From assembly GCA_016190245.1 (NCBI GenBank), contig JACPQY010000065.1:1-9723 (forward strand): a stretch of 9,723 bases of DNA. Reading direction: 5' to 3'. Shown piece after piece: positions 2,953 to 9,723 of the stretch. The stretch is from Nitrospirota bacterium (GTDB lineage Bacteria > JACPQY01). Positions within the stretch are counted from its first letter, which is position 1. Every line of letters begins with the position of its first letter. The notes under the pieces were generated by a model. It was not told the origin of the DNA and did not search any database. It worked only from the letters and a program-made list of their open reading frames with translations. Made by a program: the position numbers and the translations under genes.

Positions 2953-4080
2953 ATGGGGAGTGGCTTGGGGCTGCGTTTCAGGTCGATTTGTCTTGCCATC
3001 GGGCTCGCGCCCGCCGTCCTCGCCACGGCATGCTCCAATTCCGGCGACCGGACGGACGGGACAGAGACCGCGCAGGCCCCTTCGATCGACACGAGCCAGG
3101 CCCGCTCAGAGATCGAGTCCGCCTATCGGCTGATTTCGGAGGAGATCACCGACCCCTGCGTGGACGAGGCGTGTCTATCGGACCCCGTGGAGTTCAAGAT
3201 TGGCGACCGCGTGGCCGTTGCTTTCGTGGGCACCGAGCAGCCGATTCCAGGTGCTCCGCCCAGATCGATGGCGCACCAACCACTCCCTTTCAGCCGGCTC
3301 GCCCTGCGCGATGGCGAGAACAGTTCAAGAGACTGTCCGAGCGTGGAACGGAACCTCGACGAGGTCACCGGCGCCGCGGTGGAGACCATCCAGGGGGATT
3401 GCTTCGTCCAAGGAGTGGAAATAACCGGGGTCTGGAAAGAGAGTACGCTCGAGACCACGACGCGAAAGGCCGTTGAGATTTCGGCTGACCGGTTCGGGGT
3501 GCGTCGTGATGAAGGGCGACGCAGATTCTCGTACGCGTTCTACGGGAATGGTCTGATGGATGAGCAGAAGTCGCCGGGGGGCGGCTTCGAGATCTCAAAA
3601 AGCTCCGATATCCGCCTCTCGCAGGACGATGGTGAGCAGGTCCCCGCAAGCCGGGGTGAGCTACGAGCCTCGGGGGATTCGACAACCTCGAGCGTGAATT
3701 ACACACTTGAAGTGATGGGTGAGTTTATGCGGTCCTTCGCGCAGGCAATGAGGCCGGACACGTTTCAGGACCTGCCCGGTTCCGAGCCCGTGCACATCGA
3801 GGCTGACCTTCAAGCCCAGCACAGCGGGGGTGGAATCCTCCTGTCCTTTACCATCGTGGTCTGGGACGATCTGTATCGGCTGACGTTCAGGTCCGATGGC
3901 GTCCAGGTAAACCGTGCTGCGTGCACAAACGAGCCGGTCCGCGGCACGGTGGATGTATTTGGGACGCTCTCGGCGGGAGACGTCAGCGGCGTCATCGCCT
4001 ATGCTCCGGATTGCGATGGCTGCGCACCCCTCGATCTTTTCGGTCAGCCCGCCGGCGAGGTTTGCGCCCCTCGTCCGTAG
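2953..4080 (+). CDS. Putative lipoprotein of unknown function
   Basis: A 375-residue protein I do not recognise. Residues 1-26 form a signal peptide (basic start with Arg8 and Arg10, then a hydrophobic core), ending in LATAC with Cys27 as the likely lipidated residue. Ser28 follows, which in proteobacteria favours outer-membrane sorting. An acidic, Thr/Ser-rich linker comes next. The rest is polar with many alternating hydrophobic stretches, suggesting beta structure, and has no further membrane segment. Several Cys could pair as disulfides, notably DPCVDEAC (about 83-90), one in SRDCPS, one in QGDCFV, and a C-terminal cluster including DCDGCAP. ATG 2953 is chosen because AGGGGAG precedes it and the signal peptide starts there; the longer frame from 2839 would overlap the promoter. 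By eye the composition is less GC-rich than its neighbours. It appears monocistronic. Confidence 0.8.
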   Translation: MGSGLGLRFRSICLAIGLAPAVLATACSNSGDRTDGTETAQAPSIDTSQARSEIESAYRLISEEITDPCVDEACLSDPVEFKIGDRVAVAFVGTEQPIPGAPPRSMAHQPLPFSRLALRDGENSSRDCPSVERNLDEVTGAAVETIQGDCFVQGVEITGVWKESTLETTTRKAVEISADRFGVRRDEGRRRFSYAFYGNGLMDEQKSPGGGFEISKSSDIRLSQDDGEQVPASRGELRASGDSTTSSVNYTLEVMGEFMRSFAQAMRPDTFQDLPGSEPVHIEADLQAQHSGGGILLSFTIVVWDDLYRLTFRSDGVQVNRAACTNEPVRGTVDVFGTLSAGDVSGVIAYAPDCDGCAPLDLFGQPAGEVCAPRP

Positions 4081-4087
4081 TCCCCCT

Positions 4088-4105
4088 TGCACGGTCATGC
4101 GTGCA
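4088..4105. other. Small inverted repeat after the lipoprotein gene
   Basis: TGCACG (4088-4093) pairs with CGTGCA (4100-4105) around a 6-nt loop, 7 nt after the lipoprotein stop codon. The position suits a transcript-end hairpin, but the stem is short and no T-run follows. It is a weak terminator candidate only. Confidence 0.25.
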
Positions 4106-4144
4106 CCAGCTACCCGTGTGAATATGAAACAGGGGTGAGGAATT

Positions 4145-4172
4145 TTGACTCAGTCGCCCAACATGGTATCCT
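4145..4172 (+). promoter_or_regulatory. Sigma-70-type promoter for the kinase-sigma-54 regulator
   Basis: TTGACT (4145-4150) and TATCCT (4167-4172) are separated by 16 nt. The predicted start near 4179 is only about 7 nt before ATG 4186, so the message would be leaderless or nearly so. The sole ribosome-binding-site candidate is GGA at 4177-4179, which would be at or before the transcript start. Confidence 0.5.
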
Positions 4173-4185
4173 CTGCGGACGCACA

Positions 4186-7100
4186 ATGGCCACGCTTGTG
4201 GCTGGACGCCTCGACCTACACCATCTCCTGGGTCAGGGGCATTTCGGGAGGGTGTTCAGCGGGTTCGATCGGGTTCTAGGCCGCCGGATCGCCGCCAAGG
4301 AGTTTTGCGGGCGCGAGGGGAAGGCGCCCGTGCGCACTTTCGAGAAGGAGATGAGACTGCTTTCCCAGCTTCGACATCCTTCGCTCGTTCAAGTGTACGA
4401 CCTGGTCTACGATGAAGCCAACGGAAACCACTATCTGACGGAGGAGCTGATCGAAGGTCCCCCCCTGGATGGCTACCTCTCGAGGGTTGGTGAACCCCGG
4501 CGCTTGCTGGCGTTCGTGCAGGTCCTGCAGGGCCTGGAGTATCTGCATCAGCGCGGGATTGTTCATCTGGATATCAAACCCTCGAACATTCTGGTTGCGG
4601 GTGCGGATAGTCCTCAACCTCAGGCGAAGATCCTGGATTTCGGAATTGCCGACGAGACCGTGAGGGTCTCCAGGAGTGCCTTCATCGCGGGTACCTTCCC
4701 CTACATCGCGCCGGAGATGGCGCGGCGGGAGGCGGTTGACGGGCGCGCGGACCTGTACGCCCTCGGAATGACGTTCTTTCGGGCCTTGGCAGACCCGTCG
4801 GCTGTGGGCGGCCGCAGCGCGCCGCATGGAGAAAAGGAGTCCGCGGATGCCTCCGTCGGCGAACGGTCGCGCTCGCTGGAGGATATGCTCTGCGAAACGG
4901 CAACTCGCACTCCCCCAACGGAACAAGAATTTCGGGAAGGTGTGTCACTGAGTTTCCGGAAAGTTCTGATCACCCTCTTGGATCCCGAGCCGAGGCGTCG
5001 CTTTTGGTCCGCCAACGACGTGATCCGCCGGCTCAATCACGAACTGGAAACCGCGTTCCCCTTGGAACCGGGCCGGGTCCGGATCCCCGACAAGGCGACC
5101 GCCTTGGCCGCCGGCCTACGCACCGAACTGGGGCGCCTGGCGGAGTGGCATGAGGCATTCAGGCAGCCAGGGTCGGCCTCCTTCGTCGGGATCATCGCCG
5201 GATCCGCCCAAACGGGGAAGAGCGCGCTTCTGGACGAGTTCCGCAGGTGGTGCGAGCTCAGAGACATTTTCGTCGTGAGCCCCTCGCGCGGAGGCGATGG
5301 CGTCGCCGACCTCTTCGCCCAACTGCTTGCCCGCGAACCCCTGCCGGACCTGGGACCGTGGGCTCCGTATCTGAAGTCGATCGTTCCGGCGCGGTTCCGC
5401 GATGTCCCGGATCCTGCGGAGGTGGAGCAGACCCCTGATCTCCATCGCGAGGCTCTGCGCGAGAAATGGGCGGAGGCGTTGTCCTGCCTGCTGCTGAGCC
5501 GACCCACCGTGCTTCTCTTGGATGACGTCGATCTGCGTCCTGAGTTGCTCGCTCTCCTGGAGCGATTGCGGCTGCTGCCCGACGCGGACCGGGAGGCTCC
5601 TGCGGGGTCAACGCAGGGTTTCTTCCTCGTCGCGACGGCGACCAGGAGGGAGGGGCTGCCGCTCGGTCTCCTGGCCGACGAGGTTCTAGAACTGCTCCCT
5701 TGGCCGCGAGAGCGGGTGGAGCGCTTTCTTGCCGAGCTTCTCGGGGTCGAGAGGATGCCGGATCAGACCCTCCGCGAGGCCATGTCCCGAACGGAATCTC
5801 GGCCGGGTTTTCTCGTGGAGTTTGCTCGGTGGCTGGCCGCCCATGCCTTGGCGCCGGGCGAGGCGGTGGACGTGCAGCTTGAGGCCGTCGACTGGAGCCG
5901 GATGCCCAGCCTCTCAGACGGCGCGGAGTGGTGCCGCAACCAACTGAAAGAGGTGCCCCACACGGATCGACAAGTGCTTGAATGGCTATGCTTGGCCCCG
6001 CTTCCCCTGACACCGGACGATGTCGAAACGCTTGAATTGTACCTGTCGGGATTGGTGCTTCCCTCGATTCGGAGACTCTCGGATCTGGGATGGATTCGCG
6101 AGGACGGTGTGGCTGCGATTCCGGCCAGCTCCCTTCGCCGAGAGGTGGTACTCGGCGAGCTGACGTCGGAGGGACGGGCCCGAATGTCTCGGCGGCTGGC
6201 CGAACGATGGGATCGGCTCAGCTTGGCCCACGAGGTCATGGAGGCTCCGAGCGGAAACGCCGGCCTCGAGCGCGCACGAGCCTTCTGGCTGGGCGGTGAG
6301 GCGGACAAGGGATTCGAGCTGGCGCAGTCCGAACTAGAGGTCCGCCTGAGGCTTCATCGGCCGGACGAAGTGGCGGGGTTCCTGCGATCCGTGATGCGCG
6401 AAGCGGACGCCATGGAGGATTCCCACCGGAACGCCTGCCGGTGGCTGCTGGCGCGAGCTGCGCTCGCCACGGGTAACTACCCCGAGGCGGCCCGGGTTCT
6501 CGAGGAGGCCGAGATCATGGCGGGGTCACCCAGGGAGCACATGGATGTGGTGGTCGCGTTGGCACGTGCGTATCGGTACGGTGGCCGTCTAGCGGATGCT
6601 CTCCTGCTGATCGAAGGGGAGAAGGGGAAGGTCACACCCGGTTCGGGTTACCTTTCCACGCTCGATGCCCTGCTCGCGGACCTGCTCCTGGAGCAGGGGC
6701 GGTACGACGATGTCACCCGCCTCGCGCAACCCTACACGGCCGGTTCCAGGCCGAGCCGGCCGGGAGAACTCTTCGCCTTCCGGCATGTCCTTGCAAAAGT
6801 GCATTTCTATCAAGGCCGAGTTCGGGAGGCGATCGGCTTGTTCGAAGAGAATCTGCAAGCCGTCCGGGCTGAGGGGGCGAAGGGTCGTATCCCATTGGCG
6901 CTCAACGCTCTTGGAAGCGCTCTCTTGGAGGCGGGGGAGGTGGCCCGCGCCCTGGCGCTCCTCGAGGAGTGCGTGAGCGTCGCCAAGAAGGTCGGCGACC
7001 TCCGAGGGCGCGCACTCGGGGAGGTGAATCTGGGTGTCGGCTACCAACGCAAAGGCGAGTGGATCGCTTCGTTGCGGCACTATGAAACGGCCCTCACCAT

Positions 7101-9474
7101 CCTCCGCCGGATTTCAGACCGAGCGAACGTCGCGCGAACGCTCCTGAACATCGGCGTGATCCGGAGTCACACCCTCGATCTCGAGGGGGCGCGGAATGCG
7201 CTGGTCGAAGCGGCCCGGGAGGCTGAGGCGCTCGGCATGACCCACCTCCTGGCAAACGTTCACGTGGTCCGGTCCAATTGCGGCCTTCTCAAGGGGGACT
7301 TCGAGTCGGCGCGACAGGATGCCTTGACCGCCGAGCGGCTCTTCCGCCAGGCCGAGCGGCCGGAGGACGCCGCCTTCGCCGGGCTCAGGCACGTGGAAGC
7401 TCTACTGGGCCTGGGTCTGACCGACGAGGCGGGCGGCGAATTGGATCGCCACGTGGCGGCGCTCGGCCCGGCGCCGGACGAGCCCTTCGATGCCCTGATC
7501 CTTTACCTGCGCGGGCTCCTGCTGCCCAAGGGCGAGGCGGACAGATGCAGGAGCATCCTGAATCAGGCGCTGGCGAGGGCTCCGGCCGGCACCACGCTGG
7601 GGGAGGACGTTCGAAAGAAGGTTGGATTCCGACTCGCCCGGATGCACGTGGGGAGCGAGGCCCGGAATGCCATGACGCGTCTTCCGCTCTCAGATGGAAG
7701 ATGGAGCTCGAAGGAGGGAGGAATGGAAAGCCCTGATCCTGCCAAGGAGCCTTTGCCCGAATCCACCACGGCGTACCTGCCGAGCGATCGCCCTGCCCCC
7801 TCGATCGGTCGCGCCCCGAACGAAAATCCTCGAGGCTACAGTCTGGCGGCGGTGGAGGTGGTGCGCAAGATGAGCCTCGCGGTGGACGTGCAGGACGTTC
7901 TGGTCGAGATCGTGGATTCCCTGCTGGGATTCACGGGCGCGGAACGTGGGTTTCTCCTGATCCTCGAAAACGGGGACCTGAAGGTTCGCGTCGGACGTCA
8001 GGCGGAAGGGAAGGATCTCTCGCTCGACGCCGCCACGTTCAGTCTCACGATCGCCGAGGAATGCATCGAGAAGCGGGCCGCCGTCGTCGCGCTCGATGCG
8101 ATGCAGGACTCCCGGTTCAAGGAGTCCGAGAGCGTCTACCAGTTTCACGTCCAGTCGGTGATGGCCGTGCCGCTCGCGCTGGGGCATGAGATCGTGGGGG
8201 CGATCTACCTGGATACGCGGCTGCGGAAACGGGCTTTTGGCGATCAGGACGTGGAGGTCCTCACTGCCCTCGCCGATCTGGCTGCAGTAGCCATCCAGAG
8301 GGCACGCCTCATGGCTCAGAACCTCCGAGACCAGAAGGAGCTCCGGCGAACGCTGCGTGAGCTGAAGGAGTCCAGGTCGAAGATAGAGGCCCTGAATGAG
8401 GATTTGCGCCAGGCCAATGAGAAACTCTCGCGGCGCGTGACCGAACAGGAGGAGGAGCTCGAGACTGTCCGCGAGCGCATCAAACTCCTGGTTCAGGAGG
8501 GCAGCCCGAAGTATCGATACGATCAGATCATCGGTCAGAGCCCGGCCCTTCGCCGGGTCCTTTTGCTCCTGGACAAAGCGGTCGAGAGCCGCATTCCCGT
8601 CCACATCAGCGGTGCGAGCGGCACGGGGAAGGAGCTGTTCGCTCGCGCCCTCCACTTCAATTCCACCCGAAAGGAGGGGCCTTTCGTTCCCGTGAACTGC
8701 TCCGCTATCCCGGCGGATCTTTTCGAAGCCGAGCTGTTCGGATACGTCCGGGGCGCTTTCACGGGCGCGGAACGAGAAAAGCCGGGTCTTTTTGAGTTGG
8801 CCCACACGGGCGCGCTCTTCCTCGATGAGGTGGCGGACCTGCCACTCGGCCTCCAGGCGAAGCTGCTGCGTGTTTTGCAGGAGGGCGTGGTCCGGCGGGT
8901 AGGCGGCACGCGCGAGGTGGCTGTGGACGTGCGCGTGGTCTCCGCCTCGAATCAGGACCTGAAAGCCCTGGTGGAACAGAAGAGGTTCCGCGAGGATCTC
9001 TATTTCCGGTTGGGCGTGTTTCGAATCGAAATCCCCGCGCTGCGGGAGCGACGCGAGGATGTCCCCCCTCTGGTCCAGCACATCCTCGGGCAAGTCGCGC
9101 GGGCCGAGGGCGTGCCGTCGAAGGAGATCTCGCCCCGCGCCCTGCGGCTTCTCCAAGCCTATGACTGGCCGGGCAACGTCCGGGAGCTGGAGAACACGAT
9201 CCGCAACGCGGTTGTGATGAGCGAAGGGCCACAGATCCAGGCGGAAGCCTTCAGCCAGAAGCCCGAGTTGCTCGGCGGCGCACGCCCCTCACGCAGGGGT
9301 TCCGCCCAGGGCCTCCGAGAGGCCATGATCGACTTCCAGAAGCAGATGCTCCTGACCGCGCTTGAGCGTCGCAACTGGAACATCACGGCCGCCGCCCGGG
9401 ATCTGAAGGTGGATCGGTCGCAGCTGTCGAACTGGATCAGGAAGTTTTCCCTGGCTAAGAGGAGGTCGGGCTAG
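4186..9474 (+). CDS. Giant one-component regulator: Ser/Thr kinase - AAA_16 ATPase - TPR - GAF - sigma-54 AAA+ activator - Fis HTH
   Basis: A 1762-residue cytoplasmic protein with no membrane segment. The Hanks kinase (about 8-288) has P-loop GQGHFG (16-21), Lys38, alpha-C Glu in FEKE, catalytic HLDIKPSN (127-134), DFG (151-153) and APE (175-177), so it looks active; HLD in place of HRD makes it a non-RD kinase. A STAND/AAA_16-like NTPase follows (Walker A GSAQTGKS 339-346, Walker B LLLDD to 447), then helical repeats of TPR type (about 690-1150), as in PknK-like kinases. After a polar linker come a GAF domain (about 1225-1372), a coiled coil (about 1375-1437) and a sigma-54 activator AAA+ module: Walker A GASGTGKE (1476-1483), GAFTGA (1523-1528), Walker B LFLDE to 1548, candidate Arg fingers 1602 and 1608, WPGNVRELEN (1661-1670). 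A Fis-type helix-turn-helix ends it (about 1715-1755). It probably senses a signal, hydrolyses ATP and remodels RNA polymerase-sigma-54 at unknown promoters. ATG 4186 is chosen because the kinase fold begins at once; the frame extends to 4087 but would cover the promoter. Confidence 0.92.
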   Translation: MATLVAGRLDLHHLLGQGHFGRVFSGFDRVLGRRIAAKEFCGREGKAPVRTFEKEMRLLSQLRHPSLVQVYDLVYDEANGNHYLTEELIEGPPLDGYLSRVGEPRRLLAFVQVLQGLEYLHQRGIVHLDIKPSNILVAGADSPQPQAKILDFGIADETVRVSRSAFIAGTFPYIAPEMARREAVDGRADLYALGMTFFRALADPSAVGGRSAPHGEKESADASVGERSRSLEDMLCETATRTPPTEQEFREGVSLSFRKVLITLLDPEPRRRFWSANDVIRRLNHELETAFPLEPGRVRIPDKATALAAGLRTELGRLAEWHEAFRQPGSASFVGIIAGSAQTGKSALLDEFRRWCELRDIFVVSPSRGGDGVADLFAQLLAREPLPDLGPWAPYLKSIVPARFRDVPDPAEVEQTPDLHREALREKWAEALSCLLLSRPTVLLLDDVDLRPELLALLERLRLLPDADREAPAGSTQGFFLVATATRREGLPLGLLADEVLELLPWPRERVERFLAELLGVERMPDQTLREAMSRTESRPGFLVEFARWLAAHALAPGEAVDVQLEAVDWSRMPSLSDGAEWCRNQLKEVPHTDRQVLEWLCLAPLPLTPDDVETLELYLSGLVLPSIRRLSDLGWIREDGVAAIPASSLRREVVLGELTSEGRARMSRRLAERWDRLSLAHEVMEAPSGNAGLERARAFWLGGEADKGFELAQSELEVRLRLHRPDEVAGFLRSVMREADAMEDSHRNACRWLLARAALATGNYPEAARVLEEAEIMAGSPREHMDVVVALARAYRYGGRLADALLLIEGEKGKVTPGSGYLSTLDALLADLLLEQGRYDDVTRLAQPYTAGSRPSRPGELFAFRHVLAKVHFYQGRVREAIGLFEENLQAVRAEGAKGRIPLALNALGSALLEAGEVARALALLEECVSVAKKVGDLRGRALGEVNLGVGYQRKGEWIASLRHYETALTILRRISDRANVARTLLNIGVIRSHTLDLEGARNALVEAAREAEALGMTHLLANVHVVRSNCGLLKGDFESARQDALTAERLFRQAERPEDAAFAGLRHVEALLGLGLTDEAGGELDRHVAALGPAPDEPFDALILYLRGLLLPKGEADRCRSILNQALARAPAGTTLGEDVRKKVGFRLARMHVGSEARNAMTRLPLSDGRWSSKEGGMESPDPAKEPLPESTTAYLPSDRPAPSIGRAPNENPRGYSLAAVEVVRKMSLAVDVQDVLVEIVDSLLGFTGAERGFLLILENGDLKVRVGRQAEGKDLSLDAATFSLTIAEECIEKRAAVVALDAMQDSRFKESESVYQFHVQSVMAVPLALGHEIVGAIYLDTRLRKRAFGDQDVEVLTALADLAAVAIQRARLMAQNLRDQKELRRTLRELKESRSKIEALNEDLRQANEKLSRRVTEQEEELETVRERIKLLVQEGSPKYRYDQIIGQSPALRRVLLLLDKAVESRIPVHISGASGTGKELFARALHFNSTRKEGPFVPVNCSAIPADLFEAELFGYVRGAFTGAEREKPGLFELAHTGALFLDEVADLPLGLQAKLLRVLQEGVVRRVGGTREVAVDVRVVSASNQDLKALVEQKRFREDLYFRLGVFRIEIPALRERREDVPPLVQHILGQVARAEGVPSKEISPRALRLLQAYDWPGNVRELENTIRNAVVMSEGPQIQAEAFSQKPELLGGARPSRRGSAQGLREAMIDFQKQMLLTALERRNWNITAAARDLKVDRSQLSNWIRKFSLAKRRSG
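7712..7725 (+). promoter_or_regulatory. Strong internal ribosome binding site and in-frame ATG at the TPR/GAF junction
   Basis: AGGAGG (7712-7717) lies 5 nt before ATG 7723, which is codon 1180 of the large regulator. It is a near-perfect Shine-Dalgarno at good spacing. Translation from it would give a 583-residue protein made of linker, GAF, coiled coil, sigma-54 AAA+ and Fis helix-turn-helix, the usual size of a free-standing sigma-54 activator. The codons involved (Lys-Glu-Gly-Gly) could also produce the motif by chance. I saw no convincing promoter just upstream, so any internal product would come from the long message. Confidence 0.5.
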
Positions 9475-9526
9475 TACGGCGTTGATGAGTTCTTGGAGCA
9501 GTTTCCGGCTCTGTCGCCGTGCGGTA

Positions 9527-9565
9527 GCCCCGCCCTCCGTTCGAATTCCCGAATAGGGGCGGGGC
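9527..9565. repeat. GC-rich hairpin in the middle of the MITE-like element
   Basis: GCCCCGCCC (9527-9535) pairs perfectly with GGGCGGGGC (9557-9565). Inside the 21-nt gap TTCG (9540-9543) can pair with CGAA (9550-9553). It could stall or end transcription of the upstream regulator, but no T-run follows on the + strand. Confidence 0.6.
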
Positions 9566-9569
9566 GTAT

Positions 9570-9631
9570 GTACCGTGTTGACGAGAACCTGCCCTTTTTC
9601 GATCTGTTCCAAGACCTCTTCAACACGGTAC
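9570..9631. repeat. Third copy of the terminal repeat, forming a long hairpin
   Basis: GTACCGTGTTGACGAG (9570-9585) repeats the start of the left terminal repeat in the same orientation. It pairs with CTCTTCAACACGGTAC (9616-9631) at 15 of 16 positions around a 30-nt loop. The right part of the element can therefore fold on its own. Confidence 0.65.
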
Positions 9632-9633
9632 TA

Positions 9634-9723
9634 GGCTCTGTTTGAAAACGACCTTAAGGGGATCGACCATGGGCGGGGCGGTTCTTCGTACCTTGGCCCA
9701 GGAAGGCCAGGTACCACGCAATG
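9634..9723 (+). mobile_element. Possible left end of a second insertion sequence (continues outside window)
   Basis: From 9634 the sequence reads GGCTCTGTTTGAAAACGACC, the kind of start seen at many insertion-sequence ends. It is followed 35 nt later by a well-placed ATG. This layout of short end plus transposase start is typical of insertion sequences, but only 90 bases are visible and I cannot name a family. A bulged hairpin (TACC/GGTA and TGGCC/GGCCA, 9689-9713) lies inside. Confidence 0.3.
9669..9723 (+). CDS. Start of an unidentified gene, truncated by the window edge
   Basis: ATG 9669 is preceded by AAGGGG (9656-9661) at 7-nt spacing, a good ribosome binding site. Eighteen codons are visible, MGGAVLRTLAQEGQVPRN, still open at the edge. 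The fragment is too short to identify. Its place just inside a possible insertion-sequence end suggests a transposase, which is inference. Confidence 0.35.
   Translation, partial: MGGAVLRTLAQEGQVPRN

Follow-up and report, generated by a model that had tools for sequence, protein, structure and literature searches.

We consider it fairly likely that one gene in the window, the whole 9,723-bp stretch of DNA that was analyzed, encodes two isoforms: a long form made by leaderless initiation, and a short form made by initiation at an internal in-frame ATG led by a Shine-Dalgarno (SD) sequence. A single mRNA would yield two proteins, one of 1762 residues and one of 583 residues. Equivalent SD-ATG pairs recur in the same interdomain linker of two of six full-length paralogues, and it is this recurrence, rather than the window site by itself, that gives the site its significance.

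A candidate internal start in a kinase/sigma-54 fusion gene

The window is a complete contig (C58) of an incomplete assembly (3.29 Mb, 84.8% complete). The full-length gene, at 4186–9474 on the + strand, encodes 1762 amino acids from ATG 4186, and the ORF itself can be counted from an upstream TTG at 4087. It is a kinase-to-Fis fusion with the domain order Ser/Thr kinase, STAND/AAA_16 NTPase, TPR, linker, GAF, coiled coil, sigma-54 AAA+ and Fis HTH. Domain matches, all on the + strand, place the protein kinase domain (PF00069) at 4219–5004, the AAA_16/STAND-type ATPase domain (PF13191) at 5125–5568, and the sigma-54 interaction AAA+ domain (PF00158, 9e-65), which has a GAFTGA loop, at 8527–9030. 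The catalytic Lys, HxD and DFG of the kinase are invariant in all aligned paralogues. TPR (MalT-like) helices occupy 6790–7668 (+), with the final predicted helix ending at ~7668, and are followed by the TPR-GAF linker at 7669–7848 (+), which is unconserved and contains the candidate internal start. In a structure model of residues 1000–1480 (ORF numbering from TTG 4087), the TPR helices end at residue 1194 and the GAF domain follows after a low-confidence stretch; pLDDT is below 50 over ORF residues 1189–1263, such that the linker is predicted to be disordered. Elsewhere in the window, 79–1344 on the - strand holds a CocE/NonD-type hydrolase-like ORF; judged by eye, it seems to be missing the C-terminal part normal for such proteins, close to where the contig begins.

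The internal SD, AAGGAGG, lies at 7711–7717 (+), 5 nt before an ATG at 7723–7725 (+; spacer GAGGA, 7718–7722) in the frame of the 4186–9474 gene. This ATG encodes Met1180 when counted from ATG 4186 and Met1213 when counted from TTG 4087, and the surrounding peptide is SKEGGM. The original prediction had described AGGAGG-N5-ATG at 7711–7725; we find it present and in frame, with a 583-residue product. The same prediction had placed the site at the boundary between the TPR part and the GAF-AAA+-Fis part, and both the domain matches and the structure model bear this out, with the last predicted TPR helix ending 19 residues before the internal ATG. Another in-frame ATG of the window gene, M1262 (about 7870), where the GAF domain begins, pairs with the anti-SD as well as the Met1180 site does by duplex energy (-14.1), at longer spacing.

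The proposed short isoform (7723–9474, + strand; 583 aa) would comprise a GAF domain (residues 55–191), a sigma-54 AAA+ domain (269–436), a lid (441–512) and a Fis-type HTH (537–575; PF02954, 1.9e-7). GAFTGA, the Walker A and B motifs and the kinase catalytic residues are invariant in the seven full-length members of the family described below. The gene for the cognate sigma factor, rpoN, is present both in the window's genome, G000 (PF04552, 1e-58), and in G001, the other genome of the phylum in our comparison (3e-59). Because of this layout, the invariant motifs and the presence of rpoN, we conclude that the short form, if made, would be a complete NifA-like sigma-54 activator. Its layout is almost the same as that of L211, a free-standing activator in the window's genome, which is 603 aa long, with GAF at residues 53–197 and AAA+ at 276–442.

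Recurrence of SD-ATG pairs in the paralogue linkers

We measured the chance background for a single site in ~400-kb samples of each of the two genomes, counting an SD match at a spacing of 3–10 nt before an ATG. In a 398-kb sample of the window's genome, an SD of at least 7 nt preceded 3 of 1,668 internal in-frame ATGs (0.18%) and about 6% of predicted gene starts; SDs are in use in this genome, though not widely. A 16S gene against which to check the anti-SD was not found in the incomplete assembly. With both genomes pooled, an SD of at least 7 nt preceded 4 of 3,448 internal ATGs. The window gene has 23 internal in-frame ATGs, and about 4–5% of genes of this size would be expected to carry one such site. 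Taken alone, the window site is uncommon, yet chance could account for it.

We compared the window gene with its relatives in the window's genome and in G001, which belongs to the same family but a different genus. G001 carries six full-length paralogues (L031–L036) with 42–46% identity to the window protein, all within one 4.7-Mb genome. The window's genome has a shortened paralogue, L037 (G000:C1:8300-13400), in which the kinase, ATPase and TPR parts and the linker are retained and GAF matches weakly; L037 lacks both the AAA+/Fis half and an SD-ATG in its linker. Our genome searches turned up the complete fusion, from kinase to Fis, in no phylum but this one. A search of 386 genomes across the domain returned no AAA_16-TPR relative beyond the phylum's two, apart from two weak TPR matches, and in 146 genomes of the phylum of G029 the matching proteins cover the N-terminal part only. 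One contig scan for relatives elsewhere gave no match and another gave kinase-domain matches only, and a search of viral contigs gave one match, to the kinase region.

Whereas the domains of the seven full-length members align well, identity falls to 16–23% in a 100-residue block spanning most of the linker. The linker is unalignable, and no counterpart of Met1180 was found in register among the six paralogues. By contrast, the same linker has equivalent sites in two of the six: L031 has AAGGAGG, 8 nt and an ATG (590-aa product; peptide KEEREM), and L032 has AGGAGGT, 5 nt and an ATG (607-aa product; peptide SEEVPM). The original prediction had looked to conservation of the motif and of Met1180, and neither is conserved in register; what recurs, in these two paralogues, is the position of an SD-ATG pair within the linker. 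No comparable linker SD-ATG was found in L033, L034 or L035. L036 has two possible, weaker candidates for internal starts: an AGGAGG-5-ATG slightly upstream, at M1135 within the final TPR helix, and the linker ATG M1176, which follows a run rich in G.

The likeliest alternative to internal initiation is that these pairs arose by chance, with Lys/Glu/Gly-rich disordered linkers giving rise to AAGGAGG-like runs, one of which happens to fall beside a Met codon, and with no internal initiation; we judge this rather unlikely. Several observations are consistent with chance. Four of the seven full-length members (L033–L036) have no equally good site. Genome-wide, AGGAGG-N5-ATG occurs 63 times, as compared to 47 times for a reversed control. 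An equally good SD arises in 31–55% of synonymous codings of the three peptides, the KEGG peptide of the window giving a 7-nt SD in ~55% of them. Since the peptide alone often yields an equal SD, the SD itself is no evidence of codon selection; the evidence is its recurrent position in the linker, beside an in-frame ATG. That position argues against chance. Across the seven genes, an SD of at least 7 nt precedes 3 of the 17 ATGs in the linkers and none of the 152 internal ATGs outside them (Fisher P = 9e-4). Codon shuffles of the linkers, which preserve their Lys/Glu richness and codon use, gave P values of 2e-4, 8e-4 and 1.6e-3 for three definitions of the linker with the window gene left out, indicating that the enrichment is independent of the site that prompted the analysis. 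Moreover, the AGGAGG of all three linkers is followed in frame by a suitably spaced ATG, as compared to 4 of 312 occurrences of AGGAGG in sampled coding sequence of the two genomes. Only three sites, of which the window holds one, carry the significance, and it is weaker at a threshold of at least 6 nt (P = 0.02 for linker versus rest; 0.001–0.009 for shuffles without the window gene). In the two genomes we could examine 28 sigma-54 activator loci; an SD of at least 6 nt before an internal ATG was confined to the kinase-fused activators and was found in none of the ordinary ones.

The original prediction had also raised the possibility that the SD-ATG is a fusion scar, an idle start codon left over from a GAF-AAA+-Fis gene that used to stand alone. 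Both halves do exist alone, the kinase-ATPase-TPR half in another phylum and the GAF-AAA+-Fis half in the same genome. However, the fusion is common to all seven genes, and trees built separately from the N- and C-terminal halves do not conflict. In each, L033 pairs with L034 and L035 pairs with L036, and the end branches are long, at about 0.3–1.2 changes per site, indicating that the fusion is old and shared. Similarity in the linker has been lost over that time, so an idle, unselected motif should have decayed and been erased. We therefore regard the fusion scar as extremely improbable. For the same reasons, namely the unconserved linker peptide and the long branches, recurrence of the SD-ATG is not explained by an inherited peptide.

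Initiation of the long form and RNA folding around the internal ATG

The gene's own start had been described as almost devoid of a ribosome binding site, and we found the same: ATG 4186 is preceded by GGA only, with no SD. Upstream lies a sigma-70-type promoter-like sequence with an extended -10, TTGACT-16-TATCCT (4145–4172, + strand), the sole such site found in 3900–9723. The -10 is at -19 and the predicted leader is about 6–7 nt, which predicts a near-leaderless transcript for the window gene; in a true leaderless start, the -10 lies about 12–14 nt before the start codon. In all seven full-length members, a promoter-like sequence matching at 8 or more of 12 positions has its -10 starting 12–19 nt ahead of a start codon, and there is next to no SD. 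Such a match was found for about 13% of genes, with several start codons allowed, and for 1–2.5% of internal control points. The long forms of all seven genes are probably read from leaderless or near-leaderless mRNA, a reading that explains the missing ribosome binding site at the native start better than a fusion scar does. Leaderless translation from a 5'-terminal ATG or GTG has been well documented, for example in mycobacteria (PMC4633059).

A separate internal transcript could instead be the main source of the short form, as suggested by AerR, which has an internal promoter as well as an internal start codon (PMC6199135). We consider this improbable, since our scan of 3900–9723, which covered promoters of the sigma-70-like type, found the 4145 site and none inside the gene.

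Predicted RNA folding gives modest support for an internal start. From -25 to +25, the three linker sites fold more weakly than about 97–98% of their synonymous recodings (fractions of 0.026, 0.029 and 0.021), and this result persists with the SD held fixed. Together with L036 M1176 (0.013), they are the four lowest of 19 linker ATGs, whereas 3.5% of ordinary internal ATGs have a fraction as low. The effect depends on the size of the folding window, with other sizes giving synonymous fractions of 0.02–0.27 at the three sites.

The folding result also bears on a further alternative, that AGGAGG is an SD-like pause element that slows ribosomes between folding domains and that the ATG is incidental. 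The site does lie directly after the TPR helices and ahead of the GAF domain. A pause element, however, has no need for an in-frame ATG 5–8 nt downstream, yet all three sites have one, and reduced folding around an ATG is a feature of start sites; we consider a pause element very improbable. Overall, the prediction of a hidden second start for a 583-residue activator is supported by the complete layout of the product, the paralogue statistics and the reduced RNA structure, but not by conservation of the motif in register.

Proposed function and comparison with known systems

The sequences themselves show the motif, its frame, the domain layout, the recurrence in paralogues and the promoter-like sites with their positions; that translation does begin at the internal ATG, that the long form's transcript is leaderless, and that the two forms mix in hexamers and have a regulatory effect is what we infer. 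The long form (kinase, STAND ATPase, TPR sensor, GAF, sigma-54 AAA+ and Fis) would start at ATG 4186 on a leaderless or near-leaderless transcript, and the short form would start at ATG 7723, by ordinary SD-led initiation within the disordered TPR-GAF linker. Without kinase, ATPase or TPR input, the short form could form complexes by itself or together with its long counterpart, mixed hexamers of the two being plausible, and could thereby provide basal activity or alter the sensitivity of the switch; titration by the short form is another possible action. With two modes of initiation, the ratio of isoforms could change as the condition of the translation apparatus changes. It is conceivable, though we put this forward tentatively, that a little-known phylum has a kinase-STAND-TPR-sigma-54 family with two isoforms and two initiation modes, leaderless for the long sensor-activator and SD-led for the bare activator, in which the proportion of the isoforms, and through it the output of sigma-54, is governed by the state of the ribosome or of initiation factors.

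If true, a gene that combines a leaderless start with an SD-led one would offer an easy means of making an isoform ratio respond to the state of translation. Recurrence among paralogues without an alignable linker also suggests a rule for searching for such sites, namely that an SD-ATG recurs at a domain boundary, rather than that residues are conserved.

Individual cases are known in which an internal start divides a regulator into isoforms with and without its sensor. In the open literature, we found no internal-start isoforms described for a sigma-54 activator, and no description of kinase/sigma-54 fusions. AerR of Rhodobacter capsulatus has two in-frame isoforms with opposite effects (PMC6199135). 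Like the protein described here, AerR is a transcription regulator whose short isoform begins at an internal codon preceded by an SD-like sequence; unlike it, short AerR loses only 41 residues, starts at CTG, belongs to an unrelated protein family and involves two transcripts (PMC6199135). In SpaO/SctQ, the gene also gives a short C-terminal variant, and this assembles with the full-length product, as the short form described here may do, but SpaO/SctQ is a structural secretion component and not a transcription activator (PMC13059759). PknK-like kinase-AAA_16-TPR (STAND) proteins in the phylum of G029 match our N-terminal-half profile over a stretch that begins in the kinase and reaches the ATPase/TPR region; by contrast with the fusion, their match ends at ~670 of 1,120 profile positions, and most of the ORFs are ~1,240 aa, too short for a sigma-54 half. 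The short form also resembles GAF-type sigma-54 activators (NifA/FhlA-like, PF00158), with which it shares the GAF-AAA+-Fis layout, the GAFTGA loop and the Walker motifs. Ordinary activators of this type are separate genes, whereas the one proposed here would be nested in a kinase fusion.
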